A stretch of 64,000 nucleotides of DNA, taken from the NCBI GenBank assembly GCA_030803735.1, contig JAURUC010000001.1, positions 3,737,501-3,801,500 on the forward strand, written 5' to 3'. Under the pieces are notes generated by a model. That model saw only the letters and a program-made list of their open reading frames with translations. It made no database searches and was not told the DNA's origin. Each line of letters begins with the position of its first letter. Positions within the stretch are counted from its first letter, which is position 1. The position numbers and the translations under genes are program-made. This DNA comes from Actinopolyspora lacussalsi. Lineage in GTDB: Bacteria; Actinomycetota; Actinomycetes; Mycobacteriales; Pseudonocardiaceae. Positions 1,304 to 35,621 of the stretch are shown here, one piece after another.

Positions 1304-1830
1304 GCGTACCAGCCTGCTCCCGAGCCGACGGGAATTGCAGGACAAATCGTCCTCATTCCCTCGGACGAGGGTCCTGGCGGCGACCGGGACGTTGGTCCTG
1401 ACAGGGGAGGACCTGTAGCCCGATTCGGGGTGAATCGCGCCGCGGTCAGGTGAGTGGGAAGGGCTTCACCCACGAATGAACGGAATTCTCACTCCGAAAT
1501 CCGCCGTTGTAAACCGTCCGTCCGAAATTCCGCCGAAGAAGCCGCCCCGATTCGCGGCCCCGGGGACCACTTCAGTCCGCACCGGCACCGTCGATTTCTC
1601 GCGAAATCGCCGCGCCCCTTCGACGCGAGCCGAGCCCCGATCACCCCCCCGGCAGGGCCGAGCTCCCACCACTCACGCAGTCGGCACCCCCGCGGGTTCT
1701 CCCGTGCGGCTCTCGCGAGGAAGGCCCGACGTTGTGTAGATCGCTACCCGATGTCGGGCCTCCCCGGAGCGAGAGCCGTGCGAGAGGTTCCGCCACGAAA
1801 CCAGCTACGCAGACCGAGCCGGCAATTCGA
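1304..1830. repeat. Intergenic region with one NBS-like palindrome and a family A hairpin
   Basis: This 527-bp gap separates the cydA start from the end of the IclR gene. Bases 1304-1590 would hold the cydA promoter but I see no clear operator. The palindrome GATTTCTCGCGAAATC sits at 1593-1608. The 72-nt family A hairpin is at 1707-1778: outer arms CGGCTCTCGC and GCGAGAGCCG, inner arms GGCCCGAC and GTCGGGCC, apex GTAG-ATCG-CTAC. The same palindrome-spacer-hairpin arrangement recurs at 35282-35621. No convincing gene is present. Confidence 0.7.
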
Positions 1831-2532
1831 CTACCCGAGAGCGTCGGAGACGGCGGAACAGGTGCGTACGACGAGGGGCCCGACCTCGTCCGGCGAGAGC
1901 GGCTCCATGGCCACCACGCCCACGCTGGCGCGCAGGCCGGGCACACCACGCACGGGTGCGGCGACCCCGTACGCCCCCGGCTGGAGCTCACCCACGCTGG
2001 CCACCCACTTCGGCCCCTCCTCCGAGAGGTCCACGGCGCGACCCGCCGCGCCGCGCTGCACGGAATGTCTGGTGCCCACGCGGTAGGAGACGTGATAGCT
2101 CGTCCAGGACGGTTCGACCACGGCGATGGCCTGTGCCTCGTTGCCGTCGGCGACGGTGAGGTGAACCGTGGCCCCCACGCGTTCCGCCAGGGCGCGCAGC
2201 GCGGGCAGTGCCGCGAACCGCAGTTGCGGCACCACCTTGCCCGCCAACCACAGCACGCCGAGACCGAGCCGAACCTTGGAACCCTCGCGCCGCACCAGAC
2301 CACGACTCTGCAACGGGCCCAGCAGCCGATACACCGCCGCCCTGCTGACGCCGACGATGGTGGCGAGATCGCTGATGGTGGGTGCCTCACTGTCGGCATC
2401 GGCCACCGCCTGCAGCAGGTTGAGGCCGCGCTCCAGCGTCAGCGAACTCTCCTTCGTCTGAGTGGCTCCGGCGGGCTCCCGCTCGGGATCCGGAGTGGGA
2501 TCCCCGGCGGATCGGGCCGAGCTCGTGCTCAT
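1831..2532 (-). CDS. IclR-family transcriptional regulator next to homogentisate genes
   Basis: A 233-residue IclR-type regulator. The winged helix-turn-helix at about residues 30-90 includes ISDLATIVGVSRAAVYRLL, followed by an effector-binding domain. I chose the ATG at 2532 because GGAGGTGA lies just upstream; a more distal ATG at 2604 would run into fahA. It is codirectional with fahA, whose stop is at 2537, only a few bases away, so the two are probably cotranscribed. IclR proteins often control aromatic catabolism, so control of the hmgA/fahA locus is a reasonable inference. The ligand is unknown, possibly homogentisate. Confidence 0.85.
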   Translation of the reverse strand: MSTSSARSAGDPTPDPEREPAGATQTKESSLTLERGLNLLQAVADADSEAPTISDLATIVGVSRAAVYRLLGPLQSRGLVRREGSKVRLGLGVLWLAGKVVPQLRFAALPALRALAERVGATVHLTVADGNEAQAIAVVEPSWTSYHVSYRVGTRHSVQRGAAGRAVDLSEEGPKWVASVGELQPGAYGVAAPVRGVPGLRASVGVVAMEPLSPDEVGPLVVRTCSAVSDALG

Positions 2533-2536
2533 CGGG

Positions 2537-3742
2537 TCACCTCCGAACCGCGGGCAGCACCGTGCCGGACACATCCCCCAGCCCGACCGGACGGCCGTGC
2601 TCACCGGGCGCCGTGGCGCTGATCGTCACGCGGTCGCCGTCCTGCAGGAAGGTGCGCTGCTCGCCGTCCTCCAGCGTAACGGGATCGGAGCCGCCCCAGC
2701 TGAGTTCGAGCAGGCATCCCCGCTGATCGGGCTCCGGACCCGAAACCGTACCGGAGGCGAACAGATCGCCCGGTCGCACCGTGCTGCCGTTGACGGTCAG
2801 GTGCGCCAACTGCTGCGCGGGCGACCAGTACATCTCCGCGAAGGGCGGTCGGGACAGCAGGGTGTCGTTGCACCGCACCTCCAAACGCAGATCCAGACCC
2901 CACGGCCGATCCTCGACGAGGTAGTCCAGCAGCTGGTGATCATAGCCGGTGGTGGGGACCCGGGCCTGTTCCAGTGCCGCGAGCGGGGTGATCCAGCCCG
3001 ACATCGAGGTCGCGAACGACTTGGCCAGGAACGGCCCCAGCGGCTGGTACTCCCAGGACTGGATGTCGCGGGCGGACCAGTCGTTGACGAGCACCGCCCC
3101 GAGGACGTGCTCGGCGAAGTCCTCGGTCTCGATCGACGTGGCGGGTTCACCGCCGCAGACGAAGCCCACCTCCGCCTCGAAGTCGAGCCTGCGGGTGGGC
3201 CCGAACACCGGGGTGGGGTCACCGGAGACGCGGCGCTGCCCGTTGGGGCGGGCCACGTCCGTTCCGGAGACCACCACGGTGCCGGAGCGGCCGTGGTAGC
3301 CGACCGGCAGGTGCGTCCAGTTCGGCAGCAACGGTTCCGCTTCGCGGCGGAATATCTTGCCGACGTTCTCGGCGTGGTGCCGTGAGGAGTAGAAGTCGGC
3401 GAAGTCGGCCACGGTGAACGGCATCAGCTGGGTGTGCCAGTCGGTGCGGATCAACTCGGCGCCCTTGGGACGTGAGTCCGCCCCGACCAGCTCCAGCAGG
3501 CGTTCCCGCAGCTCGCGCCAGGCCGCCGGTCCCGCCGCGAGCAGCGGATCCAACGAGTCACCGGAGACGAGCTCACCCACCCGCGGGCCGAGCTCGTCGG
3601 CGACGCCCCGCAGCGGGACGGCGTGTTTGCCCACCCGCACGGCCACCGTCGGCCCCTTGGCGGTGCCCAGCACGCCGTAAGGCAGTGTCTGCGGCCCGAA
3701 CGGGCGGTCCGGCGCGAACTCTGGGTCCTCGATCCAGGTCAC
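2537..3742 (-). CDS. fahA: Fumarylacetoacetase
   Basis: Hydrolyses fumarylacetoacetate to fumarate and acetoacetate, the last step of tyrosine/homogentisate breakdown. The 401-residue product has the FAH N-terminal SH3-like domain followed by the catalytic domain. Visible family motifs are DFYSSRHHAENV, YHGRSGTVVVSGT, the acidic metal-ligand region EAEVGFVCGG and NDWSARDIQSWEYQPLGPF. The GTG start at 3742 overlaps the stop of the upstream gene by 4 bases (GTGA), indicating translational coupling. hmgA lies divergently beyond that partner gene. Length and motifs are normal. Confidence 0.95.
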   Translation of the reverse strand: MTWIEDPEFAPDRPFGPQTLPYGVLGTAKGPTVAVRVGKHAVPLRGVADELGPRVGELVSGDSLDPLLAAGPAAWRELRERLLELVGADSRPKGAELIRTDWHTQLMPFTVADFADFYSSRHHAENVGKIFRREAEPLLPNWTHLPVGYHGRSGTVVVSGTDVARPNGQRRVSGDPTPVFGPTRRLDFEAEVGFVCGGEPATSIETEDFAEHVLGAVLVNDWSARDIQSWEYQPLGPFLAKSFATSMSGWITPLAALEQARVPTTGYDHQLLDYLVEDRPWGLDLRLEVRCNDTLLSRPPFAEMYWSPAQQLAHLTVNGSTVRPGDLFASGTVSGPEPDQRGCLLELSWGGSDPVTLEDGEQRTFLQDGDRVTISATAPGEHGRPVGLGDVSGTVLPAVRR

Positions 3743-4611
3743 AACAGTTCCAACTCGACGAGATCGGACACGGGATCGGTGGGCGAAGTCGCCCCGTACG
3801 AGGAGAACACGCTCCGGACCGCCTTCGCCGCCTCGTCGGAGAGCGAGCACGCCTCCTCGGTCAGTGCCCGCTCGTCGGTGCTGGCCAGGGCCGCGCGCAC
3901 GTCCTGGCCGGACAGGGCGCGCCCCACGGCCACCAGCAGGTTCAGGAAACCGTGGTGCGGAAAGCCGGTCTCCGAGTCGGTACGGCGCACCGCGCGGGGC
4001 ATTCCGGCGGTCACCTTGAACGGAACCTCCAGCGTGGTGGCCACGGCCAGGAACTCGGCCACGACGTCGACACCGGGGAAGGACTCGACGGTCTGACCTC
4101 CCGACCGCAGTTTCGGCCAGCAGCCGAACTCGGCGACCCGACGAACCCCGTCGAGCCACCCCTCACCACGTCGTGGTTCGACGACGCGAACCACGTCCTC
4201 CGGGACGAACTCGGAAACGCGTTCCAGCCAGACGTCGTCGACCTCGGACGGTCCGGGCATCTCGACCATTCGGAGCGAGAGCAGTTCGTGGCGTCCCTCG
4301 ATGATCGAGAGCGCCTTCGGCACCTCGCCGAGTCCGGTGTCGCAGACCAGCGACATGGGAACGGGTTCGGCCGGTTTGGCCTTGGCCAGTTCGGTGATCA
4401 GTTCCGGCAGGCGGGAGACCTGGCAGAGGATCGGCCCCAGCAACCCCGCGTACTCGCCGTCCCGCGCACGCAGGTGTTCCTCAACCGCCTGAGCGACGGA
4501 CGCGTTGGCGGGCGGGAACAGCGAGGCATCGTCCACCAGACGTGCGAACAGGGGCGGAATACCGCGCGGACCGGGCGCGTGGAGTTCAACAGCGCTTGAC
4601 ACGAGTGTCAC
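3739..4611 (-). CDS. Conserved protein of unknown function in the homogentisate operon
   Basis: A product of about 290 residues that I cannot assign to a named family. It lies between divergent hmgA and fahA and its stop overlaps the fahA start, so it is almost certainly part of tyrosine degradation. It shows alternating hydrophobic and charged segments (PPLFARLVDDASLFPP near the N-terminus; PFKVTAGMPRAVRR and GFPHHGFLNLLVAVGRAL later), no signal peptide and no membrane segment. The window has no recognisable maleylacetoacetate isomerase, the step between HmgA and FahA, so this gene is a candidate for it or for an accessory role. Start is GTG at 4611 or GTG at 4602; both are possible. Confidence 0.75.
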   Translation of the reverse strand: MTLVSSAVELHAPGPRGIPPLFARLVDDASLFPPANASVAQAVEEHLRARDGEYAGLLGPILCQVSRLPELITELAKAKPAEPVPMSLVCDTGLGEVPKALSIIEGRHELLSLRMVEMPGPSEVDDVWLERVSEFVPEDVVRVVEPRRGEGWLDGVRRVAEFGCWPKLRSGGQTVESFPGVDVVAEFLAVATTLEVPFKVTAGMPRAVRRTDSETGFPHHGFLNLLVAVGRALSGQDVRAALASTDERALTEEACSLSDEAAKAVRSVFSSYGATSPTDPVSDLVELELL

Positions 4612-4774: not shown

Positions 4775-5962
4775 ATGCCGTACTACCGCCAAGTGGGTGA
4801 GATTCCGCGCAAGAGGCACACGCGGTTCCGTCAACCGGACGGCAGCCTCTACGCCGAGGAACTGATGGGAATCGAAGGGTTCTCCTCGGAGTCGGCCCTG
4901 CTGTATCACCGCGGACTGCCCACCGCGGTCGTCGCGGCCGAAGCGGTTGCCGAACAGGGACGTGCCACCGAGCCCAACCTGCCGCTCCGGCCACGGCACT
5001 TCCGTACCGGCGAGCTCGCGTTCCCGCGTGGCGAGGCCGGGAGCGACGCGGTCACCGGGCGCAGGCTGCTGTTCGGCAACAGCGACGTGTCGATCTGCTT
5101 CGCGGTGCCCGACACCACGAGCCCGCTCTACCGCAACGCGACCGGTGACGAGCTGTGCTACGTGCAGCACGGCTCGGCACGGTTCGAGACGATCTACGGA
5201 GCCCTGGAGGTCGCCGAGGGCGACTACGTCCTGCTGCCCGCCTCCACCACGTACCGGGTGGTGCCGCTGGGCGAACGACCTCCCCGGCTGTACCTCGTGG
5301 AAGCCACCGGACACATCGGCCCGCCCAAGCGCTATCTCAGCGCCAAGGGGCAGTTCCTGGAGAGCTCCCCGTACTGCGAACGGGACCTGCGCGGTCCCAC
5401 GGAGCCGCTGCTGCTGGAGGGCGAGCACGTGGACGTGCTGGTTCGGCACCACGACGGCCTCACCCGGATGACGTACGAGCATCACCCGTTCGACGTGGTC
5501 GGCTGGGACGGCTGCCTGTATCCGTGGGTGTTCAACATCGCCGACTTCGAACCGATCACCGGACGCATCCACCAGCCGCCCCCGGTGCACCAGACCTTCG
5601 AGGGGCCGAACTTCGTGGTGTGCTCGTTCTGCCCCCGCAAGGTGGACTACCACCCGGACTCGATCCCGGTGCCGTACAACCACGCCAATGTGGACTCCGA
5701 CGAGCTGATGTTCTACGTGGGTGGGAACTACGAGGCGCGGAAGGGCTCCGGAATCGGCATCGGCTCGCTGTCGCTGCACCCCTCCGGGTGCAGCCACGGG
5801 CCGCAACCGGGTGCGGCGGAGGCGTCGCTGGGCGCGGAGCGGTTCGACGAGACGGCCGTCATGATCGACACCTTCCGGCCGTTGCGGTTGGGTGAGGCAG
5901 CCACCGCATCCGAGGACCCCACCTACTACCGCAGCTGGGTGACCAACAAGCCGGACAACTGA
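4775..5962 (+). CDS. hmgA: Homogentisate 1,2-dioxygenase
   Basis: Non-heme iron dioxygenase opening the ring of homogentisate to maleylacetoacetate. The ATG at 4775 (MPYYRQVGEIPRKRH) is preceded by GGAGG about 6 bases away, so the upstream in-frame extension is not used. The 395-residue cupin-fold protein keeps the C-terminal region with iron-binding histidines and glutamate: HQTFEGPNF, YNHANVDSDELMFYVGG and HPSGCSHGPQPG. It is divergent from the unknown gene plus fahA; the shared 163-bp gap should hold both promoters. Length matches bacterial HmgA of the shorter type. Confidence 0.95.
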   Translation: MPYYRQVGEIPRKRHTRFRQPDGSLYAEELMGIEGFSSESALLYHRGLPTAVVAAEAVAEQGRATEPNLPLRPRHFRTGELAFPRGEAGSDAVTGRRLLFGNSDVSICFAVPDTTSPLYRNATGDELCYVQHGSARFETIYGALEVAEGDYVLLPASTTYRVVPLGERPPRLYLVEATGHIGPPKRYLSAKGQFLESSPYCERDLRGPTEPLLLEGEHVDVLVRHHDGLTRMTYEHHPFDVVGWDGCLYPWVFNIADFEPITGRIHQPPPVHQTFEGPNFVVCSFCPRKVDYHPDSIPVPYNHANVDSDELMFYVGGNYEARKGSGIGIGSLSLHPSGCSHGPQPGAAEASLGAERFDETAVMIDTFRPLRLGEAATASEDPTYYRSWVTNKPDN

Positions 5963-6434
5963 GCAGGTCGGCTCGTGTTCCGCAGCTGGTTGCGTGGCGG
6001 AACCTCTCGTACGGCTCTCGCCGTGTTGCTGTGCCGGTTGCTCTGGCGCGGTGGTCGGGTAGCCGGCACGTGAGTCGGCGCCTTGCTGTGTTGGGCCGGC
6101 TCTTGAGTAGCGACCTACGCGGCGAGCGGCCCGGTCTTGCAATGCATCCGACTCACGCACCGGGGACAATCGCGCTGCGAACCGCACGGTCGCTTCCCGG
6201 CGAGGGTTCCGGGACCGGCGATTTCGCGAGAAATCTACGCCCACGGGGCCACACCGCCCCCAGTGGACCGTCGATTTCGCGAGAGATCGACGGCGCCCCG
6301 GCCCCGGTCGACAGCGCGGTACACCGCACGCGGTTCCGCCACGCGGCGATCCCTGATCGGGTCACTTCCACAACGGCGTCGACTGGGTTAGGGTTACCTA
6401 ATAAGTCCTGCTGTGCCGCCTCTGGAGGTGAGCG
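5963..6434. repeat. Intergenic composite repeat: partial A, family B hairpin, paired palindromes, then iron box
   Basis: This 472-bp gap between hmgA and the DUF2470 gene is mostly repeat. A truncated family A left arm lies around 5985-6025. The family B hairpin is at 6070-6156, with outer arms GTGAGTCGG and CCGACTCAC, inner arms GGGCCG and CGGCCC, and apex GTAG-CGAC-CTAC at 6107-6118. Palindromes follow at 6220-6235 and 6273-6288, 53 bp apart; the second has one imperfect base. The region from the B hairpin into the first palindrome is similar to 26300-26682. No gene is seen. Confidence 0.7.
6386..6401 (+). promoter_or_regulatory. Probable DtxR/IdeR iron box
   Basis: GGTTAGGGTTACCTAA matches 14 of 16 positions of the right-hand part of the classical actinobacterial iron box TTAGGTTAGGCTAACCTAA (recalled consensus). 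It contains the inverted halves TTAGG and CCTAA and lies 34 bp before the ATG of the DUF2470 gene, where an iron-loaded repressor would block transcription. The match is by eye. Confidence 0.6.
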
Positions 6435-18574: not shown

Positions 18575-19387
18575 GTGCGCAGACCATCCCTTGTCGCTTC
18601 CGACGTCGACGGAACCCTGCTGGACCCGGCGGAGCGGGTCAGCGAACGCACCGCGCGCGCCGCGTGCGGCGTTCATGACTCCGGAACCCCGTTCGTGCTG
18701 GTCACCGGTCGTCCACCTCGCTGGGTCCCGCGGATCGTCGCCGGTCTCGGCGTGGCCGGGGCGGTGGTGTGCTCCAACGGGGCGGTGCTCTACGACGCGG
18801 CGGCGGACCGGGTGCTGCACAGTACGGCGATCGACCCGACGACCCTGCGGGAGGTGACCGGCGAGCTGCGCGACGCCTTACCGGGTTGTTCCTTCGGGGT
18901 GGAGCGTTCCACCAGCGGCGCGCACGACCGGTTGGACCAGCAGTTCATCGCCGAGTCCGCGTTCCACCGCTGCTGGCCCAACCCGGACCTGCGCATCGCT
19001 GCGCGGGACGAGCTGGTCGGTGTGCCGGTGGTGAAGCTGCTGGTCATGCACGAGCGGATGACCAGTGCCGAGATGGCGCCCGTCGCGGAGGAAGTGATCG
19101 GAGGACGGCTGGGGGTCACCTACTCCACCGGCGCCGGGTTGCTGGAGCTGTCCGCGCCGGGCGTGAACAAGGCGGCGGGGCTCGCGCGAGTGGCCGAGCA
19201 GCTGGCGGCTGATCCCCGCGACGTCATCGCGTTCGGCGACATGCCCAACGACATCCCCATGCTGGAGTGGGTGGGGCACGGCGTGGCGGTCGGCAACGCA
19301 CACCCCGATGTTCGCCAGGTCGCCGACGAGGTGACCACGAGCAACACCCACGACGGGGTGGCAACCGTGCTCGAACGCTGGTGGTGA
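18575..19387 (+). CDS. HAD-superfamily (Cof-type) phosphatase
   Basis: A 270-residue phosphatase. Motif 1 is LVASDVDGTLLDP (nucleophile Asp and acid-base Asp), the second motif TGRPPR follows, and motif 4 is FGDMPNDIPMLEW. The Cof-type C2 cap lies between. This family dephosphorylates sugar phosphates and pyridine nucleotides. The start is GTG at 18575 (VRRPSLVASDVDG), since the upstream in-frame extension overlaps the LLM gene's promoter and is out of character. By synteny it resembles Rv3813c. The stop lies 6 bp before a long intergenic repeat region that includes family A. Confidence 0.85.
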   Translation: MRRPSLVASDVDGTLLDPAERVSERTARAACGVHDSGTPFVLVTGRPPRWVPRIVAGLGVAGAVVCSNGAVLYDAAADRVLHSTAIDPTTLREVTGELRDALPGCSFGVERSTSGAHDRLDQQFIAESAFHRCWPNPDLRIAARDELVGVPVVKLLVMHERMTSAEMAPVAEEVIGGRLGVTYSTGAGLLELSAPGVNKAAGLARVAEQLAADPRDVIAFGDMPNDIPMLEWVGHGVAVGNAHPDVRQVADEVTTSNTHDGVATVLERWW

Positions 19388-19777
19388 CCTCCTGCTGTCG
19401 GCGGCGCGGTTTGCGTGGCGGTGCGGGTGGCGGAGCCTCTGGCACGGCTCTCGCTGCGGGTGCCCCGACATCGGGTAGCGACCTACACAACGTCGGGGCC
19501 GTCCTCGCGAGAGCCGCACCGGAGAACCCGCGGCGGTGCCGGTGGCGAGAGCGGTCGGAGCGCGGCCCGTGGAAGTGGTCGGAGCGCGGCGCTGCGTCGT
19601 AGCGGCGCGGCGATTTCGCGAGAAATTGACGCCCCAGTGCGGCGGTGCGGCCTCGTGTGCGTAGATTTCCCACGAAATCGCGGAGGCCGCTACCGGAGTC
19701 GGGCCAGTCGGGCCTCACCGCAGCGAGAGCCCGCGAGAGGTTCCGTCACCCGCATCGCTACGCGAATCGACCACGGA
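19388..19777. repeat. Intergenic composite repeat: family A hairpin plus paired palindromes
   Basis: This 390-bp gap lies between convergent genes. The family A hairpin (copy 2) is at 19445-19516: outer arms CGGCTCTCGC and GCGAGAGCCG, inner arms GCCCCGAC and GTCGGGGC, apex GTAG-CGAC-CTAC. The inner stem differs from copies 1 and 4 but stays paired. Palindromes lie at 19612-19627 and 19664-19679, 52 bp apart; the second is imperfect (GATTTCCCACGAAATC). A fragment of a family A arm recurs around 19718-19745. The A-to-palindrome spacing and sequence mirror 35380-35571 in reverse. No gene is seen. Confidence 0.7.
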
Positions 19778-20854
19778 TCATCCGGCCGAGGCCTGTCTGA
19801 TGGTGTCCATCCGGGCGTGGACGTTGTCACCGGGGCAGGCGGTCTCGCCGACGTCGCGGTGGGTGAAAATCCTGGGCAACGTGACCGAGGTGCCCTCGGG
19901 GTACTTGTTTCCCCTGCCTCCCCCGGACACCAGCGTGGTCTGCCCCAACGGATCACGACCGACGGTGCCGAGCTTCCAGCCCGCGATCCTTCCGGTCGAA
20001 CGCAGCGCGCTCTCGGTCGGGTAGGCGGTCTCGAAGTTGCCGATCAGCGCCACCCCGAAGGTCTGACCGTTGAATCCCTGGGTGTGGCCACCCACGACGT
20101 GGCGTCGCAGTCCGTCGGTACGTCCGGCGAAGATCGTGCCGCACTTGTCCACCAGCGCGTGGTAGCCGATGTCGCCCCACCCGAGCTCCACGGCGTGATA
20201 GTGATACAGCCCCCGGACCACCTCGGCGGAGCGCGCGCAGGTGTAGTCGTTCGTCTCCACGGTGTGGTGCACGATCGCCGCCCGCGTGGTGGCCGAGTAC
20301 TCCGGTGGCCAGCGCATCATGCTCTCGTCGGCGCCCCACTCCGCGCGGGTCACCACCGGCGGCCGTGCGGTCCGCCGCTCGGTTTCCGAACGCACCGGCT
20401 CCGTGCCCGGCGTGATCGCGATCAGTTCCAGCTCCCCGGTCACGTGCTCGCCCGCCCGAACCGCGCGTATCCGGATGCGGGAGCTCGGCCCGGTCCACCA
20501 GGCACCGCTCGCGCCCGCCGCGCCGGACACATCGCTGCCGCCGTGCCCGGAGGAACCCAGTGGCGACAGCTCGTGCCAGGAGCTCCAGCGCCCGTCCTGC
20601 CGGTACTGTGCCGTTGTCCGGTCCGGGGCTTTCCCGTCCCAGGTGACAGCGACCATGCTGAACCGCTTTCGGGTCCGCACCGTGCGTATGCCCGGTGAGT
20701 CCCGTGCTCCCGGTGCCTCGGACAGTGACCGGTGCACCGCCGTGGTCTCTCCGCGAGTCGGACTCGATCGTTCCGTGGTCGAACCGGCGGCACCGGTGGT
20801 CAGCAGTGTGGTCGTGGCCAGTGCGATGGTTCCGACGATTAAGCCGCGGAGCAT
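19778..20854 (-). CDS. Secreted PGRP-type N-acetylmuramoyl-L-alanine amidase
   Basis: A 358-residue secreted protein: signal peptide LRGLIVGTIALATTTLLTTGAAG (N-terminal 25), a linker with WSSWHELSPLG-type strands, and an amidase-2/PGRP domain from about residue 170 (RAEWGAD, IVHHTVETNDYTC, HYHAVELGWGDIGYHALVD, TFGVALIGNFE, THRDVGETACPGDNVHAR). Zinc ligands His (IVHHT), a later His and Cys (ACPGD) are in the usual places. It cleaves the lactyl-L-alanine amide of peptidoglycan. It resembles Rv3811 by synteny and lies close to the glf operon. Translation start ATG at 20854. Confidence 0.9.
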   Translation of the reverse strand: MLRGLIVGTIALATTTLLTTGAAGSTTERSSPTRGETTAVHRSLSEAPGARDSPGIRTVRTRKRFSMVAVTWDGKAPDRTTAQYRQDGRWSSWHELSPLGSSGHGGSDVSGAAGASGAWWTGPSSRIRIRAVRAGEHVTGELELIAITPGTEPVRSETERRTARPPVVTRAEWGADESMMRWPPEYSATTRAAIVHHTVETNDYTCARSAEVVRGLYHYHAVELGWGDIGYHALVDKCGTIFAGRTDGLRRHVVGGHTQGFNGQTFGVALIGNFETAYPTESALRSTGRIAGWKLGTVGRDPLGQTTLVSGGGRGNKYPEGTSVTLPRIFTHRDVGETACPGDNVHARMDTIRQASAG

Positions 20855-25008: not shown

Positions 25009-26257
25009 CAGGAACGAGGTCGATTCACGGTCCCCGGAGGAGAGCACTCCGGGAACCAACGACGGACAGCGGTCCGAACGGTCGGTGACGACCCCCGCTT
25101 CCGGTGGCGGCGTCGACACCGCCACCACCGAACGGGAAGCCGAGACCGAACGTGATGCCGAGCCCTCGACCGCCGATGCGGACCCCGCGGGCACCGAGGA
25201 GGCCGTGCGGGCCGACTCCGAAGGACTGATCGGTTCGGAGGCGGGTGGTGAGGCCGGTGCGTTGGAGGACCGGTTCACCGGAGGCACGGCGACCACGGAC
25301 TCGGCGGGGGAAACGACCGCCGAGGGATCGCGCCAGGACAAGTCCTCGGACGCCTACCACGCGAGGGTGGTCGCCGCCGCGGGAACTCCGACCGGGCTGT
25401 TCAACGGCCTGCTCAAGGAACTGCGGCCGAAGCAGTGGGTCAAGAACATCCTGGTGCTGGCCGCACCGTTCAGCGCGGGCGAGCTGTGGGCGGTTCCGAC
25501 CCTGCTCGACGCGGCCGTGGCCTTCGTGGTCTTCTCGATGGCCGCTTCGGGAATCTACTTCATCAACGACGCTCTCGACGTCGAGTCGGACCGGGCGCAC
25601 CCGACCAAACGAAACCGGCCGATCGCGGCGGGGTTGATTCCGCTGCCGGTGGCCTACGCGGTGTGCGGGTTGCTGCTGGTCGGCTCACTGGTCATATCCG
25701 GCCTGATGAGCATGGGGCTGTTGGCGGTGATGGCCGTCTACGTCGCCGTGCAGCTCGGCTACTGCTTCGGACTCAAGCACCAGCCGGTGATCGACCTGTG
25801 CATAGTGGCCTCCGGCTTCCTGCTGCGCGCGGTGGCGGGTGGCGCCGCCGCCGGGCTGGAGATCACCCAGTGGTTCTACATCGTGGTCGCTTTCGGCTCG
25901 CTGTTCATGGTGGCGGGCAAGCGCTACGCGGAGGTCAAGCTCGCCAACGAGACCGGAGCCAAGATCCGCAAGTCGCTGCGGGCCTACTCCGCCTCGTACC
26001 TGCGGTTCGTCTGGGCCATCTCGGCCGCGATCATGATCATGTCCTACAGCATGTGGGCCTACGACATCCGGCAGCAGGACAACTCGATCTGGGGAGTGGT
26101 GTCGATCATTCCCTTCGTGATCGGCATCCTGCGTTACGCGGTGGACGTGGACAAGGGCGTGGCCGGTGAGCCGGAGGAAGTGGCACTCAAGGACAAGGTG
26201 CTGCTGGTACTGTTCGGCATCCTCGCCGGATGCCTCTTCCTCGCCTTCTACCTCTGA
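25001..26257 (+). CDS. ubiA: Decaprenyl-phosphate phosphoribosyltransferase (UbiA-type)
   Basis: Integral membrane enzyme transferring phosphoribose from PRPP to decaprenyl phosphate, the first committed step to the arabinose donor DPA. The 418-residue protein has an N-terminal tail of about 130 residues, very acidic and poor in hydrophobics, then the UbiA core with RPKQWVKNILVLAAP and the Asp motif NDALDVESD near residue 190, plus several helices ending LFLAFYL. The tail is much longer than in mycobacterial UbiA, which I recall as about 300 residues. The GTG at 25001 has GGAGG 5 bases upstream. Confidence 0.93.
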   Translation: MADRNEVDSRSPEESTPGTNDGQRSERSVTTPASGGGVDTATTEREAETERDAEPSTADADPAGTEEAVRADSEGLIGSEAGGEAGALEDRFTGGTATTDSAGETTAEGSRQDKSSDAYHARVVAAAGTPTGLFNGLLKELRPKQWVKNILVLAAPFSAGELWAVPTLLDAAVAFVVFSMAASGIYFINDALDVESDRAHPTKRNRPIAAGLIPLPVAYAVCGLLLVGSLVISGLMSMGLLAVMAVYVAVQLGYCFGLKHQPVIDLCIVASGFLLRAVAGGAAAGLEITQWFYIVVAFGSLFMVAGKRYAEVKLANETGAKIRKSLRAYSASYLRFVWAISAAIMIMSYSMWAYDIRQQDNSIWGVVSIIPFVIGILRYAVDVDKGVAGEPEEVALKDKVLLVLFGILAGCLFLAFYL

Positions 26258-26779
26258 CAGTCACCGTGAGAGTGGAGTGCGTGGTCGGGTAGCCGTCACG
26301 TGAGTCGGCGCCTTGCCGCGTTGGGCCGGCTCTTGAGTAGCGACCTACGCGGCGAGCGGCCCGGCCTCGCAATGCATCCGACTCACGCACCGGGGACACG
26401 CGCGCTGCTCACGTGGGAAGGCGAGTGGTGCGGCCTCGCGACTCGGCTGCCGTAGCTGGTTTCGTGGCGGAACCTCTCGCACGGCTCTCGCTGCGGTTCC
26501 GGCGACATCGGGTAGCGACCTACACAACGTCTCCGGCGTCCTCGCGAGAGCCGCACGAGAGAACCCGCGGCGGTGCCGACTGCGAGAGCGGTAGGGGTTG
26601 AGCACCGGGGACACCCGCGCTGCTTATCCGCACGGTCGCGTACCGACGGGCGGTACCGGGGACGGCGATTTCGCGGGAAATCGACGGCCACCCCAGACCG
26701 GACCGCCGTACGCACCGGGCCCTCGCCCAACGGCTCGGCGATTTCGCGGGAAATCGACGCGGGCCGGTGCGGGTACTGT
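26258..26779. repeat. Intergenic composite repeat: B hairpin, A hairpin, paired palindromes
   Basis: This 522-bp gap lies between convergent ubiA and the YbaK-type gene and is almost all repeat. The family B hairpin (copy 2) is at 26300-26386. The family A hairpin (copy 3) is at 26482-26553 with inner arms CCGGCGAC and GTCTCCGG. A second copy of the B-flanking block (CACCGGGGACAC) follows at about 26603. Palindromes lie at 26667-26682 and 26740-26755, both ATTTCGCGGGAAAT, 73 bp apart. The order A-B-palindrome-palindrome is thus visible in modular form. No gene is seen. Confidence 0.75.
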
Positions 26780-29888: not shown

Positions 29889-32144
29889 TCACCACGGCCG
29901 GTCGACGATCTCACCGGTCTCCGGGGAGTAGATGACGTAGCCCCCCTGGAAGTTCACCCTGCGATCACCGTTCTCAGTGGTCATCTCATCGCTGGTGGGG
30001 TAGCCGAGGTAGGAACGCTCCCAACCCAGCTGCTGCCACCGGTCACGGATACCCCCGTAGACGGTGTGCGCACTGCCGACGCTCTTGCTGAAGTAGATCG
30101 AGCTGCCGCCCGCACCGTTGAAGTGGTTGTAGGCGGCCTGCCCGTCCGGTGTGATGCGCTGATCGGTGGTCGGGTAACCGAGGGCTCCGCCCGGCCCACC
30201 CTCCTCCAGCAGGTACTTCGAGGCGATCCCTCCCTGCAGGGAATGCGCCTGGGTCGCCTGACTCCAGGCGACCATGGCGAACATATTGTTCTGCCCGCTG
30301 AAGAGGTTGAACCTTCCGGAGCCGTCCCCGTAACCGATGAGCTCGTCGGTGATCGGGTACCCCAACGGTCCGTTGACCCCGCCGCTCGCCATCCACTTGT
30401 CGTAGATGGCGCCGTAGACGGCGTGCGTGGCCCCGAATTCTTCTATCCAGGCGCCCTCCGAGGCCGAGTAGATGGCGCCGCCATCGCTTCCGGCGAACTC
30501 GATGTAGCTGCCCTTACCATCCGCGGCGCTCTGCTCGTCGGTGGTGGGGTAGCCCAGCGGGCCGCGTTCCCAGCCCGTGGAGGCCCACTTGTCCCGGATA
30601 GCGCCTTGGATGGTGTGTGCGCCGGTTTGTTCCGTCCAGTAGATCGAGCCGTTGTTCTCGAAGTGGTTGTACTGGCCGGTGTTGTCCGGTGTGGCCGTGG
30701 TGTCGGTGGTGGGGTAGCCCAGGGGGCCGCGTTCCCAGCCCGTGGAGGCCCACTTGTCGTAGATGGCGCCTTGGATGGTGTGTGCGCCGGTTTGTTCCGA
30801 CGAGTAGATCGAGCCGTTGTTCTCGAAGTGGTTGTACTGGCCGGTGTTGTCCGGTGTGTTGGTGGTGTCGGTGGTGGGGTAGCCGAGCGGGCCGCGTTCC
30901 CAGTTGGTGGATGCCCACTTGTCCCGGATGGCGCCTTGGATGGTGTGTGCGCCGGTTTGTTCCGACGAGTAGATCGAGCCGTTGTTCTCGAAGTGGTTGT
31001 ACTGGCCGGTGTTGTCCGGTGTGGCCGTGGTGTCGGTGGTCGGGTAACCCAGCGGGCCCTCTCCACCACCGGTCTCCTCCCACTTCGCCAGGATCTTGCC
31101 CTGCAGCACGTGGGCCTGCGTCTCGGCGGTCCAGTAGATGACGCCGCCGTTGGCGAACTCGCTGTACTGACCCCGGCCGTCCGCTGTCGCGGCGGTGTCG
31201 GTGGTCGGGTAACCCAGCTGGCTACCGCCGCCTTCGGCGCGCCACTTCCGCAGCACGGGCTCACCGAGCACGTGGGCTTCCGCGTCCTCCGGCGCGTAGA
31301 TCGCGCTCGTTCCCCGCTCGGAGCTCATGAACTCGCCGTAGGGGGTTCCCAGGTCGTCGGTGAGCACGTTGGTGGTGGGCACACCCAGTACCTCGTGCCC
31401 GCCAGCCTTCACGAAGGCGTCGAGCACGGCACCCGAGACGGAGTGCACGCCCTGCTCGGCCGACCAGTAGATCCGGGCGTTGTCGTACTTCTGGTAACGG
31501 AGCGAGTCGCTGACGACCTGCTCCTCACCCACCGGCTCTCCCAGCCGCTGCTGCTCGTCGGAGCTGAGGTTCTGGTAGTACTCGTCGATCTTGCCCGCGC
31601 CGGGACCCTCATCGGTCTGGTCGCCATCGTCCGCGGAACCGTCGCCGTTGTCTCCGGAGCCGGTGTCACTATCCGATTCGCTGCCGGAGCCGGTGTCAGC
31701 ACCGGACTCCGAGTCGTTCGACCCGGAGCCGTCGGTGGAACCGGACTCGTCGGTGGAACCGGACTCGTCGGTGGAACCGGACTCGTCGGTGGAACCGGAC
31801 TCGTCGGTGGAACCGGACTCGTCGGTGGAACCGGACTCGTCGGTGGAACCGCTATCGGAACCGGAGTCATCGGTGGAACTGTCGCCGGAGCCCGAGGCGT
31901 CGCTCGATCCGGAGTCGTCGTCGGAAGTGTCGTCCCCAGAGTCCGAGGAGCTCGTCCCCGTTCCGGATTCGCTCCCCGCCTCGTTCTGGGCGGAGTCGTC
32001 ACCGGAGTCGGCCTGCTGGCTCGACTGGGTGGTCGGCGTGCTCTGCTCGGACTGTTCGGTCGCTCCGGCCGCGGGAGCGGCCGTGACCAGGGCGGCTGCC
32101 GTGCTCAGCGCGACAGCGCGCCCCACAAGATTCTTGACCGTCAC
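29889..32144 (-). CDS. Large secreted LGFP-repeat protein with Ser/Asp-rich stalk
   Basis: A 751-residue secreted protein. The signal peptide starts VTVKNLVGRAVALSTAAALV, followed by a long Ser-Asp-Gly-Thr stalk (about residues 30-195) that includes STDESG repeated in tandem. Then come about ten LGFP modules (LGYPTTDT...). Near-identical 55-residue units (period 165 bp) lie in the middle. The stalk probably spans the envelope and the LGFP array binds the wall. The start at GTG 32144 has AAAGGGG upstream; the ATG at 32171 is less likely. No LPXTG or C-terminal membrane segment is seen, so retention presumably depends on LGFP binding. Confidence 0.85.
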   Translation of the reverse strand: MTVKNLVGRAVALSTAAALVTAAPAAGATEQSEQSTPTTQSSQQADSGDDSAQNEAGSESGTGTSSSDSGDDTSDDDSGSSDASGSGDSSTDDSGSDSGSTDESGSTDESGSTDESGSTDESGSTDESGSTDESGSTDGSGSNDSESGADTGSGSESDSDTGSGDNGDGSADDGDQTDEGPGAGKIDEYYQNLSSDEQQRLGEPVGEEQVVSDSLRYQKYDNARIYWSAEQGVHSVSGAVLDAFVKAGGHEVLGVPTTNVLTDDLGTPYGEFMSSERGTSAIYAPEDAEAHVLGEPVLRKWRAEGGGSQLGYPTTDTAATADGRGQYSEFANGGVIYWTAETQAHVLQGKILAKWEETGGGEGPLGYPTTDTTATPDNTGQYNHFENNGSIYSSEQTGAHTIQGAIRDKWASTNWERGPLGYPTTDTTNTPDNTGQYNHFENNGSIYSSEQTGAHTIQGAIYDKWASTGWERGPLGYPTTDTTATPDNTGQYNHFENNGSIYWTEQTGAHTIQGAIRDKWASTGWERGPLGYPTTDEQSAADGKGSYIEFAGSDGGAIYSASEGAWIEEFGATHAVYGAIYDKWMASGGVNGPLGYPITDELIGYGDGSGRFNLFSGQNNMFAMVAWSQATQAHSLQGGIASKYLLEEGGPGGALGYPTTDQRITPDGQAAYNHFNGAGGSSIYFSKSVGSAHTVYGGIRDRWQQLGWERSYLGYPTSDEMTTENGDRRVNFQGGYVIYSPETGEIVDRPW
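30541..31060. repeat. 165-bp tandem units inside the large LGFP gene
   Basis: Three units with nearly identical DNA and a period of 165 bp, seen from GCGCCTTGGA at 30601, 30766 and 30931. They encode 55-residue LGFP modules such as HTIQGAIRDKWASTGWERG. The DNA identity points to recent duplication or gene conversion, so copy number may vary between strains. Confidence 0.85.
31731..31856. repeat. 18-bp tandem repeat encoding STDESG stalk
   Basis: Six perfect copies of GTCGGTGGAACCGGACTC plus one degenerate copy. On the coding strand they give Ser-Thr-Asp-Glu-Ser-Gly units in the stalk. Likely slippage-prone. Confidence 0.9.
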
Positions 32145-32530
32145 TATTTCCCCTTTCAGGTCTCGTTCCATGATCGGACGAAAGGGGCGTGACTGTCGCG
32201 TCCTGTTATCGTTTCGCAGTCGAATTTACCCGTGCAATCGTCTTGCCGCGGGATGTAACACGGTGAGCCGGATTACATTCCATGTTTTCGTCATCACGAT
32301 CGGTCGTGATTGTTCATCGCGCTGGGCATCGAGTCTCGCCGAACGGGGAAACTGTGTCATGCCTCGCGGCCGTGCTCAGCGGAATCGGGTCGCGGTGCGC
32401 AGTCGACCGCGGACGACTTCGCCCGGTACGCGTTCGACGAGAACACGCACCGGGCGAAGTCGGTAAGCCGCGTGACGGTTGTGCTGTCCGGTCGGAGCAG
32501 CCGGAAACCGTGACGTATCGACAAGCGGGT
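32145..32530. other. Intergenic region with hairpin, between divergent-side LGFP start and dprE2 end
   Basis: This 386-bp gap contains the promoter of the large LGFP gene, with AT-richer sequence around 32190-32300. It also contains a perfect 13-bp hairpin, GACTTCGCCCGGT (32415-32427) with ACCGGGCGAAGTC (32449-32461), about 70 bp past the dprE2 stop, a candidate terminator. No gene is supported. Confidence 0.5.
32415..32461. terminator. Candidate terminator downstream of dprE2
   Basis: Perfect 13-bp stem with a 21-nt loop located 70-116 bp beyond the dprE2 stop on the reverse strand. Loop length is longer than typical, so a regulatory or terminator role is tentative. Confidence 0.5.
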
Positions 32531-33286
32531 TCAGAACGGGAGTCTGCGGAACACCGCGCGTGGCAGATGACGCAGCACGCTCATCACGTAACGGAACTGC
32601 GCCGGTGCCCACACCAGCTCCTTGCCCTTGCGCACCGAGTTCACGACGATTTCCGCGACCTGCTCGGGAGTCTGCGCCAGCGGCGCCTCCTTGAGCCCCT
32701 CGGTCATCTTCGACTTGACGTGGCCGGGGCGCACCACCGTCACCTTGATTCCGGAGGGGCGCAGCGCCTCGGTCAGGCCGGTGTAGAACCCGTCCATGCC
32801 CGCCTTGGCGGAGCCGTAGGCGAAGTTGGACCGACGTACCCGTTCCCCCGCGACGGAGGAGAGCGCGACGATGTGGCCGTGCCCCTGCTTGCGCAGGTGT
32901 TCGGCGAGCAGTACTCCCACCGTCACCGGGGCCACGTAGTTGATCTCGGCCATCTCCTGCGCGGCCGTCACATCGGTCCAGAGTTTCTCCTGGTCGCCCA
33001 GCATGCCGAACGCGACGATGCTGATATCGATGTCTCCCTCGCCGAAGGCCTTGTCCAGGGTTTCCGCGTGGGTCTCGGGCTTGCGGGCGTCGAACGGGAC
33101 CGTGGTAACCGTGCTGCCCGTCTCGCGCAGCCGCTCCGCCGCCGCTTCCAGCCGGTCGGAGGGACGCGCGGCCAGCACTATCCGAAGTGGACGCTCTCGC
33201 GCGTAGCGCTCGGCGGTGGCCAGCGCGATGTCCGAGGTGCCGCCGAGCAGCAGCAGGGACTGGGGGTTGCCAACCGCATCGATCAC
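32531..33286 (-). CDS. dprE2: Decaprenylphosphoryl-2-keto-erythro-pentose reductase
   Basis: Short-chain dehydrogenase that reduces DPX to decaprenylphosphoryl arabinose, the second half of the DprE1/DprE2 epimerisation. The 251-residue protein has the glycine-rich GGTSDIALATAERYA, the catalytic Ser in VALSSVAGERV and the YxxxK motif YGSAKAGMDGF. The GTG at 33286 overlaps the dprE1 stop by four bases (GTGA), so the two are translationally coupled. A membrane association is expected by analogy. Confidence 0.95.
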   Translation of the reverse strand: MIDAVGNPQSLLLLGGTSDIALATAERYARERPLRIVLAARPSDRLEAAAERLRETGSTVTTVPFDARKPETHAETLDKAFGEGDIDISIVAFGMLGDQEKLWTDVTAAQEMAEINYVAPVTVGVLLAEHLRKQGHGHIVALSSVAGERVRRSNFAYGSAKAGMDGFYTGLTEALRPSGIKVTVVRPGHVKSKMTEGLKEAPLAQTPEQVAEIVVNSVRKGKELVWAPAQFRYVMSVLRHLPRAVFRRLPF

Positions 33287-34647
33287 AGGTTCAGCCTCCT
33301 GGCCAGGTCGGAACGGAAGATTCCTTCGGGGTCGACCGCGGCACGCGTCTTGCGCCACTCGTCGATACGCGGGTACATGCGCTCGATCATCTCGGGAGTG
33401 GTGCGGGACTCCTTGGCGAGGTAAAGCCTGCCACCGGCCTCCAACACCATTTCGTCCAGATCCCGGCACAGCCGATCGAGCCCCGGTGTGACCGGGATGT
33501 CGACGGTTAGCGTCCAGCCCTTGTCCGGGAAGGACATCGGTGCCGCGTTTCCCGGGCCGAACGTCTTGAGGACGTTCAGGAACGAGACGTGTCCCGAAGC
33601 GCTGATCTTGTCGATCGAGCGGCGGAACATCTGTTCCTGGCCGAACGGGACCATGAACTGGTACTGCAGAAAACCGTTGGAACCGTACACGCGGTTCCAC
33701 TCGCCGACCAGGTCGAGCGGGTGGAAGAACTGCGTGATGTTCTGTACCGAGCCGTACTTCGTAGGTGCTTTGCGGTACCAGACCTCGTTGAAGGCGGTGA
33801 TGGTGTACTTGTTCACCAACCCGTTCGGAAATACCGGCGGTGCCGTCATCAATTGGGGGGCGTCGAATCCGAGCGGATTCTTCCGCAGTTTTTTCGGGAG
33901 TTCGTCGAGGGTGGCCGGATTGCCACGGGTGAGCAGTGCGCGTCCCATCCGGTCGCCCCGCGCCAACGAGTCGAACCAGGCGACCGAATACACGTAATCG
34001 TCGTCGGAACCGTCCGTGAAGTGTTCGAGCAGCTCGTCCAGATTCCGGGTTCGGATGTTGTCGACCACGAAGTAGGCCGTTTCCACCCGTTTGAGGCGAA
34101 TGGTGGCTCGGAGGACGATCCCGGTCATCCCCATGCCGCCGACCGTGGCCCAGAACAGCTCGGCCGAATCGGACTCGGGAGTCAGGGTGCGCACCTCGCC
34201 GTCCGCCGTCAGCAGGTCCAACGAGATCACGTGGCTGCCGAACGACCCCTGCGAGTGGTGATTCTTGCCGTGGATGTCCGCCCCGATGGCCCCACCGATG
34301 GTCACCTGCCGGGTGCCGGGGAGCACCGGTGGCCACAGGCCGTGCGGGATCAGCCTGCGCATCAAGGTGTCCAGGGACACACCCGCGTCCACGTCGACGA
34401 CCGCGTTGTCGACGTCGATCGTGTGGATCCGGTCGAGCGCGGTCATGTCGATGACGGTCCCACCGGCGTTCTGCGCCGGGTCGCCGTAGCTGCGGCCGAG
34501 ACCTCTGGCGATCACCCCGCGTGGGCCGGCCTCGCGCACGGCACGGGCGATTGTCTCGACATCCGGTGTGCTGACCACCTCGGCCATGGTGGGGGCGGTA
34601 CGTCCCCAGCCCGTCAGCATCCGTTGCTCGTTGTTAACCGATCCCAC
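33283..34647 (-). CDS. dprE1: Decaprenylphosphoryl-beta-D-ribose 2'-oxidase
   Basis: FAD-dependent oxidase converting DPR to the keto intermediate DPX, essential for arabinan synthesis. The 454-residue VAO-fold protein has the FAD site GLGRSYGDPAQNAGGTVIDM and GAIGADIHGKNHHSQGSFG, and the C-terminal WRKTRAAVDPEGIFRSD. The residue aligned with Cys387 of the M. tuberculosis enzyme, the covalent target of benzothiazinones, is Thr381 here (GWTLTVDIP, codon at 33505-33507). The GTG at 34647 gives VGSVNNEQRMLTGWGR. It is divergent from gtrA. Confidence 0.96.
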   Translation of the reverse strand: MGSVNNEQRMLTGWGRTAPTMAEVVSTPDVETIARAVREAGPRGVIARGLGRSYGDPAQNAGGTVIDMTALDRIHTIDVDNAVVDVDAGVSLDTLMRRLIPHGLWPPVLPGTRQVTIGGAIGADIHGKNHHSQGSFGSHVISLDLLTADGEVRTLTPESDSAELFWATVGGMGMTGIVLRATIRLKRVETAYFVVDNIRTRNLDELLEHFTDGSDDDYVYSVAWFDSLARGDRMGRALLTRGNPATLDELPKKLRKNPLGFDAPQLMTAPPVFPNGLVNKYTITAFNEVWYRKAPTKYGSVQNITQFFHPLDLVGEWNRVYGSNGFLQYQFMVPFGQEQMFRRSIDKISASGHVSFLNVLKTFGPGNAAPMSFPDKGWTLTVDIPVTPGLDRLCRDLDEMVLEAGGRLYLAKESRTTPEMIERMYPRIDEWRKTRAAVDPEGIFRSDLARRLNL

Positions 34648-34831
34648 TGTGACGAGTCTAGCTGCGTACCGTGGCACGGCAGCGCCGGGTGAAACCCGGC
34701 CCCACCCCGCTTGACCGGTCGAGTGGCTACACTTGCCTGTGAGTCAGGGGCGGCGGGTGACGCGTGGGCGGATTGATTGCCGCTCGGCCCGGTTCCCGCT
34801 TAAGTGTCGTCGTGACAGCCGAGGTGAACGA

Positions 34832-35281
34832 GTGGCCGTGGCCGAAAGCACCGCCGAACCTGATACCAAGAAGCTGGGGATAGTCGAGCAGCTCATCCGT
34901 TTCGGACTCATCGGCGTCTTCTGTGCGCTGCTGGACTACGGCTCGTACATGACGCTGCTCGCGCTGGACCTGCCGAACTGGGCGGCCCGAACCCTGGCGT
35001 TCGTGCTGGGGACCAGCGCCTCCTACGTCGCGAACCGAAGACTCACCTTCGCCGGTGCCAACACCGGCAACACCAAGGCGAAGGCCGGGGGATTCGTGCT
35101 GGTCTACGTGGTGACCTTCCTGGTCAACATCGGCACCAACCAGCTGTTGTTCCTGCTGCTGCCCGAGTTCGGCTTCCACTACGGGGCGCAGCTCAAGTGG
35201 ACCGTGTGCTGGTTGGCGGGCCAGGGACTGGGTACCGCGATCAATTTCGTGCTGTTGCGCTGGGTCGTCTTCCGCGAGTGA
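34832..35281 (+). CDS. GtrA-family membrane protein
   Basis: A 149-residue protein with about four transmembrane helices (FGLIGVFCALLDYGSYMTLL, AFVLGTSASYVANRRLTF, VLVYVVTFLVNIGTNQLLF, GLGTAINFVLLRWVVF). GtrA proteins are proposed to flip polyprenyl-linked sugars, and this one sits where Rv3789 lies next to dprE1, where a role in decaprenylphosphoryl-arabinose handling has been discussed. The GTG at 34832 (VAVAESTAEPDTKKLG) has GAGGTGAAC upstream. It is divergent from dprE1. Confidence 0.88.
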   Translation: MAVAESTAEPDTKKLGIVEQLIRFGLIGVFCALLDYGSYMTLLALDLPNWAARTLAFVLGTSASYVANRRLTFAGANTGNTKAKAGGFVLVYVVTFLVNIGTNQLLFLLLPEFGFHYGAQLKWTVCWLAGQGLGTAINFVLLRWVVFRE

Positions 35282-35621
35282 ACCGCCCCTGACCTCGGAG
35301 CTCCGTCGATTTCTCGCGAAATCGCCGGCCCGGCACCGCCGTCGGGAAGCAACCGTGAGCGACGCAGCGGGGTGTCCCCGCCTCCGTCGATTTCTCGCGA
35401 AATCGCCGCGCCGCTACGACGCAGGGCCGAGCTCCCACCACGCCCGCAGGCGGCACTCCGACCACTCTCGCCGTCGGCACCGCCGCGGGTTCTCCGGTGC
35501 GGCTCTCGCGAGGAAGGCCCGACGTTGTGTAGATCGCTACCCGATGTCGGGCCTCCCCGGAGCGAGAGCCGTGCCAGAGGTTCCGCCAAGCGATCAGCTA
35601 CTCCGCCCGAGCCGTCAAAGC
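35282..35621. repeat. Intergenic composite repeat: paired palindromes plus family A hairpin
   Basis: This 340-bp gap separates convergent gtrA and emb. Palindromes GATTTCTCGCGAAATC lie at 35308-35323 and 35389-35404, 81 bp apart. The family A hairpin (copy 4) is at 35500-35571 with outer arms CGGCTCTCGC and GCGAGAGCCG, identical in its stems to copy 1. Sequence from the second palindrome through the hairpin closely resembles 1593-1790. No gene is seen. Confidence 0.75.

Follow-up and report, generated by a model that had tools for sequence, protein, structure and literature searches.

The described systems closest to the element analyzed here are the bacterial REP and BIME repeats. REPs measure 20–40 bp; GTAG- and CGTC-tagged forms are covered by a paper whose main text does not contain the word Actinobacteria (PMC3733652), and RAYT-linked REPs by another (PMC2817692). 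As far as these papers portray them, REP and BIME repeats resemble the present element in its palindromic form, in its number of more than 100 per genome, with most copies lying between genes and near gene 3′ ends, and in its mosaics with other repeats, in which units lie in opposite orientation. The element departs from them in a core of ca. 100 nt, which exceeds the REP size range, in the irregularity of its hairpin, whose internal-loop motifs are fixed and which prefers one strand, and in the lack of an evident, consistent tag at its foot.

Other known systems share part of this description. MITEs and small mobile sequences such as RU/ERIC-like units, compared by description, are likewise short, non-coding and present in many copies, with inverted ends in some composites. 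In the element, however, only 21 of 131 copies carry a second, inverted head on the tail side (strict motifs), neither a parent transposon nor, at the two sites compared, a target duplication was found, and the folded core is under strand-specific covariation. Structured RNAs of Rfam 15 are similar in their covarying stems, fixed loop motifs and G-U pairs on one strand, whereas the element matches no family and is dispersed as a repeat. Intrinsic terminators also consist of a GC-rich hairpin close behind stop codons, but the element is irregular, keeps its loop motifs, has no evident T run and folds better antisense to the gene. Integron attC sites, which enter the comparison only through their recognition as a folded single strand, are marked by core site sequences and a cognate integrase. 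No paper on these Actinopolyspora repeats was found in the open-access literature searched. Here, we follow the element from four copies in a 64,000-nt stretch of DNA from the salt-loving bacterium Actinopolyspora lacussalsi (the window) to its relatives across the family Pseudonocardiaceae.

Anatomy of the repeat unit

The preliminary description placed four 72-nt hairpins (family A) at 1707–1778, 19445–19516, 26482–26553 and 35500–35571, and these positions are correct, as are the arms given for them. In a common orientation, the inner stem is GGCCCGAC/GTCGGGCC in the first and fourth copies, which are identical, GCCCCGAC/GTCGGGGC in the second and CCGGCGAC/GTCTCCGG in the third. The observation of four covarying hairpins is confirmed with these alleles, apart from one C-T mismatch in copy 3; the fully paired form of that allele is found in L030 and L044. 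The outer arms, reported as constant, are so only among the near-identical copies of the own genome and are rewritten with pairing kept in other genera. Nor is the apex fully constant, its loop being shorter in several of 38 own-genome copies and its stems GTAT/ATAC-like in some genera.

The 72-nt stretch is the middle of a longer unit, and identical 72-nt middles occur in copies with differing flanks. On the better-folding strand, the core is an irregular hairpin of ca. 100 nt running from GCGGGTTCTC to GAGGTTCCGC, flanked by a head of ca. 30 nt and, at the opposite end, usually by a tail module. A covariance model of 124 positions, R1, delimits the cores in the window:

1582..1676, no strand: tail module of copy 1, with a palindrome at 1594
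1677..1800, + (better-folding strand): core of copy 1 (R1 136.7 bits); head towards a gene with its stop at 1831 (gene call)
1801..1821, +: outer head part of copy 1, from similarity to copies 2 and 4, window self-BLAST (ends 1821–1825) and head consensus
5980..6021, −: head and outer arm of family A, truncated, located behind a stop at 5962 and followed by a family B copy at ca. 6051–6178
19402..19422, −: outer head part of copy 2
19423..19546, − (better-folding strand): core of copy 2 (R1 136.3 bits); head towards a HAD-hydrolase gene with its stop at 19387 (gene call, Pfam)
19547..19680, no strand: tail module of copy 2, with short direct repeats and palindromes at 19612 and 19665
19707..19763, no strand: second head, truncated and inverted, at the far end of the copy-2 composite (19413–19469 against 19763–19707, 82.8%)
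26286..26408, −: hairpin of family B, which shares the GTAG/CTAC apex and has different stems (R1 match weak, at 26.6 bits; 12 B copies aligned)
26460..26583, − (better-folding strand): core of copy 3 (R1 143.8 bits), with family B between it and a stop at 26257
35378..35469, no strand: tail module of copy 4, with a palindrome at 35390; another palindrome lies at 35309
35470..35593, + (better-folding strand): core of copy 4 (R1 137 bits); head towards an Emb arabinosyltransferase gene with its stop at 35622 (Pfam)
35594..35614, +: outer head part of copy 4
45763..45885, +: another family B copy, the third in the window (R1 23.8 bits; 91–98% identity to other B copies over 121–141 nt)

The stop at 26257, which the family B hairpin adjoins, belongs to a UbiA-family gene (Pfam). 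In the head consensus, the GT(A/G)G stretch is weak, its commonest bases reaching 55, 56, 58 and 85% per position; CGTC ends one strand of the tail palindrome, which is a module of its own. The apex GTAG was rejected as a REP tag because it lies inside the hairpin and not at its foot. Inspection of the internal loop by eye gave no support for a kink-turn. At gathering score, Rfam matched only 3 tRNAs in the whole window, and a permissive scan of 19300–19800 returned a single match, of 19.4 bits, to a microRNA family whose gathering score is 197; membership in an Rfam family was rejected on the basis of these two scans.

Covariation and the maintained strand

Covariation is strong. The alignment fitted to the model comprises 90 distinct rows, from 95 copies in 13 genomes and one A. 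biskrensis contig; 98.2% of its cells are paired, and of the 37 pairs, 20 have changed on both sides with pairing kept, 2 of the 20 belonging to a doubtful helix of two pairs that lies outside the main hairpin. The alignment contains 209 both-sided cells, compared with a mean of 45.9 after shuffling (none of 500 shuffles reached 209) and 27–56 in slid controls. RNAalifold applied to a sequence-only alignment of 17 copies again gave 20 of 37 pairs. The proposal of a selected RNA or DNA structure in place of a random repeat is therefore supported far beyond the four original copies. On the model strand, G-U cells outnumber C-A cells by 405 to 11, which marks one strand as the one maintained, and RNA energy is lower on the model strand in 126 of 130 copies. 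The hairpin is strong on both strands.

Within the genus, the covariation has a more mixed origin. The three commonest inner alleles are each found together with both states of one outer pair; stem alleles are thus shuffled among copies, and the covariation is partly exchange. Between orthologous copies (31 pairs less L310, four own sites being used twice, all best-scoring copies and not a random sample) we counted 17 double changes, all of which keep pairing where about 1 would be expected if the sides were independent; two pairs make up 12 of the 17. Given this concentration and the free combination of alleles, the window covariation does not of itself amount to a series of independent compensatory changes. 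As a mark of selection, it is less well supported, since within the window it is largely an exchange of a few stem alleles among copies, and the interpretation offered in the preliminary description is as a whole partly supported.

The covariation might even be mutational and not selective, if arm-templated (quasipalindrome) correction and gene conversion changed both arms together. The recurrence of the exchange at the same two pairs, the free combination of alleles and the identity of the 72-nt middles despite different flanks would all fit such a process. Arm-templated correction should, however, convert G-U to Watson-Crick pairs, yet every one of the 90 rows has G-U at columns 20–121, and 87 of the 90 have U-G at 22–117. 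Between genera, moreover, stem letters are rewritten while pairing and several internal-loop motifs are kept. We regard a purely mutational origin as very unlikely.

Genomic distribution and gene context

When run on the genome and its relatives, as the preliminary description had proposed, the covariance model returned 131 matches on the own chromosome at E ≤ 0.01, the best at 3.4e-25 (150 of 9327 candidate places scored), a number that excludes chance as the source of the family. None of the 131 copies lies between 14,148 and 1,304,225, i.e., in 1.29 Mb of chromosome. The element was found in 78 of 297 sampled Pseudonocardiaceae genomes (15 of 46 genera) and, in an order-wide sample, in 17 of 249 genomes, all 17 from this family; in searches of more than 40 genomes, filters were strict and few places were scored in each genome. 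G021 has 121 matches, G002 and G008 are also element-rich, and the congener G006 is nearly devoid of the element, with 3 matches. Plasmids gave no match to a 246-nt query.

The head faces a stop codon in 107 of 131 copies, at 25–39 nt in 89 of these. As a control, stops form 40% of the ends of gaps of at least 150 nt in the sequence examined, a figure that comes mostly from a copy-poor region (142 of 169 gaps); in the window alone, they account for 25 of 54 ends. A start is faced by 23 copies, in 3 of which an antisense frame is open and possibly marks a missed gene end; the gene caller was simple and self-trained, with rough starts, and called part of the HAD gene on the wrong strand. Relative to the gene at the stop that the head faces, the better-folding strand runs antisense. 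On the tail side, a stop lies next to 80 copies and a start next to 48, which leaves the model strand without a consistent upstream gene. The genes at the head mostly differ between genera.

When 40 strong copies of the sister species A. mzabensis and A. alba were mapped, 33 fell next to a copy of the own genome, which shows little recent movement. Orientation could be classified at 32 of these 33 shared sites, the remaining one (L305) being left out because it has copies on both strands; 30 are the same and 2 flipped, and the flip at L327 is ambiguous because of a second, partial own copy nearby. An earlier impression of frequent flips was reduced accordingly. Clear inversions of whole composites were found in more distant congeners, at own position 2,966,303 compared with L200 (A, tail and B; 468 aligned nt, 80.8%) and at 4,047,418 compared with L048 (A plus tail; 212 nt, 93.4%); in L052, L064, L067 and L180, inversion is clear for the A part alone. 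At two sites, the element is present in one species and absent from another at the same gene junction, and neither site showed a clean empty site or target duplication, the flanks being too diverged or a remnant being present. The Emb locus of A. alba was dropped as a clean empty site: A. mzabensis has a remnant there, so the absence in A. alba may be a loss. Orthologous copies are 92.2% identical in the core, 77.9 and 82.2% in the flanks and 90.9% at third codon positions. A core above its flanks and near third codon positions fits decay slowed by conversion or a weak constraint on each copy.

These data bear on the main rival to a mobile origin, namely that the host uses the element and selection keeps it at each site, as a model-strand RNA or as a 3′-end hairpin that ends or protects transcripts (a terminator or antisense barrier). 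Tight spacing behind stops, sites common to several species, a core better conserved than the intergenic flanks, pairing kept in all 17 ortholog double changes and a hairpin strong on both strands speak for such use. However, the better-folding strand is antisense to the preceding gene and the model strand has no consistent upstream gene; inspection of the alignments by eye revealed no evident T run beside the hairpin; 1.29 Mb of chromosome has no copies and the congener G006 has nearly none; conservation of the core hardly exceeds that of third codon positions; and REPs, as far as the cited work describes them, show a like preference of place (PMC3733652). Host use at each site seems unlikely to us on balance, though it deserves serious weight.

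Candidate mobilizing factors and the favored reading

Among 504 proteins compared, with clusters judged by eye, no transposase-like cluster recurred beside own copies. Y1_Tnp (IS200-type) has 4 matches in the own genome (G000) and occurs in 6 more congeners, but gave no match in the element-rich G002, G008 and G021. RVT_1 (PF00078) matched in only 2 of 13 genomes and IS110 (PF01548) in 7 of 13; both are missing from G000, and IS110 also from G002 and G021. G021 has none of the three. A simple RAYT/IS200 link is weakened by this pattern even though the own genome has its 4 matches, as are links to a reverse transcriptase, absent from the own genome and most of the 13, and to IS110. The element likewise differs from RAYT-mobilized REPs in the absence of Y1_Tnp from some element-rich genomes and of a transposase-like cluster beside own copies, and from group II intron/retron and IS110 bridge RNAs in that the own genome has no PF00078 or PF01548 match. 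Inverted heads, the GT(A/G)G-like head stretch and the CGTC-ending tail palindrome do recall tagged REPs as these papers present them (PMC3733652, PMC2817692), and Y1_Tnp is at hand in the own genome and congeners. That the element is cargo of one of these known hairpin users nonetheless strikes us as the least probable of the explanations considered, each enzyme being missing from some element-rich genomes; one since lost could still have been responsible.

We favor, with moderate confidence, the reading that the hairpins form the core of a large interspersed repeat, REP/BIME-like and non-autonomous, which Actinopolyspora and its relatives carry and whose folded strand is recognized by a putative factor. 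Within each lineage, it would have been spread by a putative enzyme that recognizes a folded single strand, either RNA or single-stranded DNA; the rewritten stems and differing head genes between genera are as expected of such lineage-specific spread. Recognition might operate via the loop motifs and the fixed G-U/U-U irregularities, which would keep the shape while stem letters drift. Insertions would have survived mainly beside gene ends, settled copies being inherited in place and homogenized by recombination between copies, and the mobilizing factor may be lost.

A further, rather improbable reading is that the model strand really exists as a structured nucleic acid in many copies, belonging to a putative hairpin-recognizing or nucleic-acid-guided system. 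As RNA or single-stranded DNA, it would then point with its 3′ end outward across the head into the adjoining gene end, so that every one of the ca. 130 copies would join a locus-specific antisense extension to a shared scaffold.

For the family, the covariance model permits annotation of an element whose tested copies are covered by no Rfam family. The stop-codon spacing, the antisense folding strand, the in-place inversions and the copy-free 1.29 Mb sharply constrain its mechanism. With a fold that can be read from sequence with unusual confidence, what recognizes bacterial interspersed repeats, and whether as RNA or single-stranded DNA, becomes a testable question.

Architecture of the family A unit

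The four family A hairpins of the preliminary description were confirmed at their coordinates. Each forms the middle of a longer unit made up of a head, a hairpin of ~100 nt and, in many copies, a tail module. A covariance model built from 38 copies matched the host genome 131 times at E <= 0.01 (150 places scored out of 9327 candidates). This genome is a single contig of 5,028,440 bp containing the window at positions 3,737,501-3,801,500, and it belongs to an Actinopolyspora (Actinomycetes), judging by the Emb protein of the window (98% identity to Actinopolyspora righensis, 97% to A. alba, 94% to A. mzabensis). The head, of ~30 nt, has the consensus GGCTCGGtTTGCGTGGgTGgTCGCgTG ahead of GCGGAACCTC, with the exact GCGGAACCTC anchor present in 117/131 copies, and a second head was detected in 21/131. 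In the tail module, a short palindrome accompanies direct repeats of ~25 nt. Within 400 nt of the copy, such a palindrome was found on the tail side for 73/131 copies and on the head side for 2/131.

Repeat features, in window coordinates unless stated
1707-1778, 19445-19516, 26482-26553, 35500-35571: family A hairpins (72-nt middles)
26286-26408, about 6051-6178, 45763-45885: family B hairpins
1594, 6220, 19612, 19665, 35309, 35390: short palindromes, type GATTTCGCGAGAAATC
30537-31222, 31701-31879, 49835-49984: closely spaced direct repeats that lie in or overlap long open frames, from window self-comparison
2,503,191/2,503,571; 2,925,980/2,926,231; 4,903,074/4,903,311 (host genome): gaps with two family A copies, heads outward, each to its own gene

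The GATTTCGCGAGAAATC-type palindromes, often two together, have a terminal CGTC on one of the strands and in this respect resemble CGTC-tagged REPs, for which a longer stem of 8-9 bp has been described. Family B has the GTAG/CTAC apex of family A on different stems; the head side faced a stop in 12/12 copies of host sequence examined (8/12 at 29-35 nt), and neither strand of these 12 had a clear folding advantage. Composites are modular, since some congeners carry another spacer in place of the tail module (loci L051, L052, L064 and the first copy of L079).

Covariation and the maintained strand

The preliminary description had proposed a selected RNA or DNA structure with a covarying inner stem, and searching the genome and its relatives with covariance models supported and sharpened this claim. 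In a structural alignment of 95 copies (90 distinct rows) from 13 genomes and one A. biskrensis contig, 98.2% of stem cells held standard pairs and 20/37 pairs showed both-sided change, two of them in a doubtful small helix. The 209 both-sided cells compare with 45.9 in shuffles (0/500 reached 209) and 27-56 in a slid-partner control. Because this alignment was fitted to the model, a second was made by sequence alone; RNAalifold on its 17 copies gave 37 pairs, 20 with kept both-sided change. Stems were rewritten between genera, the retained stretches including GGGTTCT, GCGAGGA and GAGG-TTCC with its partners.

One strand, which we term the model strand, is maintained. It held 405 G-U cells versus 11 C-A cells and was lower in energy in 126/130 copies with RNA parameters (means -76.5 vs -67.5 kcal/mol) and in 109/130 with DNA parameters. 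Strand maintenance makes RNA more likely than single-stranded DNA.

Allele exchange and proposed selection on shape

Orthologous copies qualify how much of this covariation reflects structural selection. In 30 aligned pairs of 31 listed, 998 of 1,045 stem cells were unchanged and 17 were double-changed, all 17 still paired (0.98 expected under independent sides); the others were one-sided but paired (16) or broken (14). Differences amounted to 3.2% at paired and 16.1% at unpaired columns. Two pairs hold 12/17 double changes, and at one of the two, both states are found together with each of the three commonest inner alleles, for which reason the copies seem to convert one another. Within the genus, allele exchange accounts for much of the covariation. 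Simple arm-templated correction could also be proposed as the source of the paired changes, but the presence of fixed G-U positions argues against it. It is the rewriting of stems between genera that carries the argument for long-term selection on the shape. Orthologous identity was 92.2% in the core against 90.9% at third codon positions, 77.9% in the head and 82.2% in the tail, so these sequences do not prove constraint at single sites.

Genomic placement, spread and stability

According to gene ends from a simple gene caller, the head side of the 131 copies faces a stop in 107 cases, a start in 23 and no called gene in one, whereas among gaps of at least 150 nt in the host sequence examined, 40% of ends are stops (binomial P 4e-23; 25/54 in the window alone). 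The tail side faces 80 stops, 48 starts and no gene in three cases. For 89/107 head-side stops the distance from the model end is 25-39 nt; the head consensus extends ~21 nt past that end, and the outer head edge would lie a few to ~20 nt from the stop. As the head mostly faces a stop, the better-folding strand is in most cases antisense to the gene behind whose end it lies. The main alternative to a mobile repeat is a host-used RNA or 3'-end element. The stop-side preference is not unique to family A, since many REPs are likewise reported to adjoin the 3' ends of ORFs, in two genomes at distances of up to 20 bp (PMC3733652).

No family A match falls between 14,148 and 1,304,225 of the host genome, where 33.6 would be expected if uniform; the stretch does have ordinary intergenic gaps, and ~374 kb sampled within it gave a best match of only E 0.43. 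This 1.29-Mb stretch surrounds the antipode of dnaA (single DnaA C-terminal domain at 3,594,536), and tail palindromes are few there (4 in the 400 kb sampled vs 6 in the 64-kb window). One family A copy (3,594,855-3,594,974) occupies the gap right after the end of dnaA, as judged from coordinates. With the origin set at dnaA and the terminus assumed at its antipode, the complement of the model strand is co-directional with replication in 92/131 copies.

The element occurs in 78/297 sampled genomes and 15/46 genera of the family; in an order-wide sample it was found in 17/249 genomes, 17/17 within the same family. One congener (G006) has 3 matches. Genes adjoining copies mostly differ between genera (19 loci, 4 genera). 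Mapping 40 strong copies of A. mzabensis and A. alba placed 33 at most 400 nt from a host copy; the other 7 fall outside the host sequence compared. At the stop of the Emb arabinosyltransferase gene, the element is present or absent depending on species. At another junction, A. biskrensis has an element and the host, A. righensis, A. alba, A. mzabensis and A. xinjiangensis show none. Composites were also inverted between the same two genes across species, for which inverted heads at both ends are a likely substrate.

Y1_Tnp (IS200/RAYT type) was found in 10/25 genomes searched, including the host, with no match in element-rich G002, G008 and G021; RVT_1 (2/13 genomes) and IS110 (7/13) had no match in the host. 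None of the three is a likely explanation; G021, with 121 matches of the element, lacks all three. No transposase-like protein was seen among the protein clusters recurring beside host copies. A search of open-access papers found no description of family A repeats.

Family A is best read as a large REP/BIME-like, non-autonomous repeat whose folded single strand would be recognised by a putative factor, and whose copies would now mostly be inherited in place.
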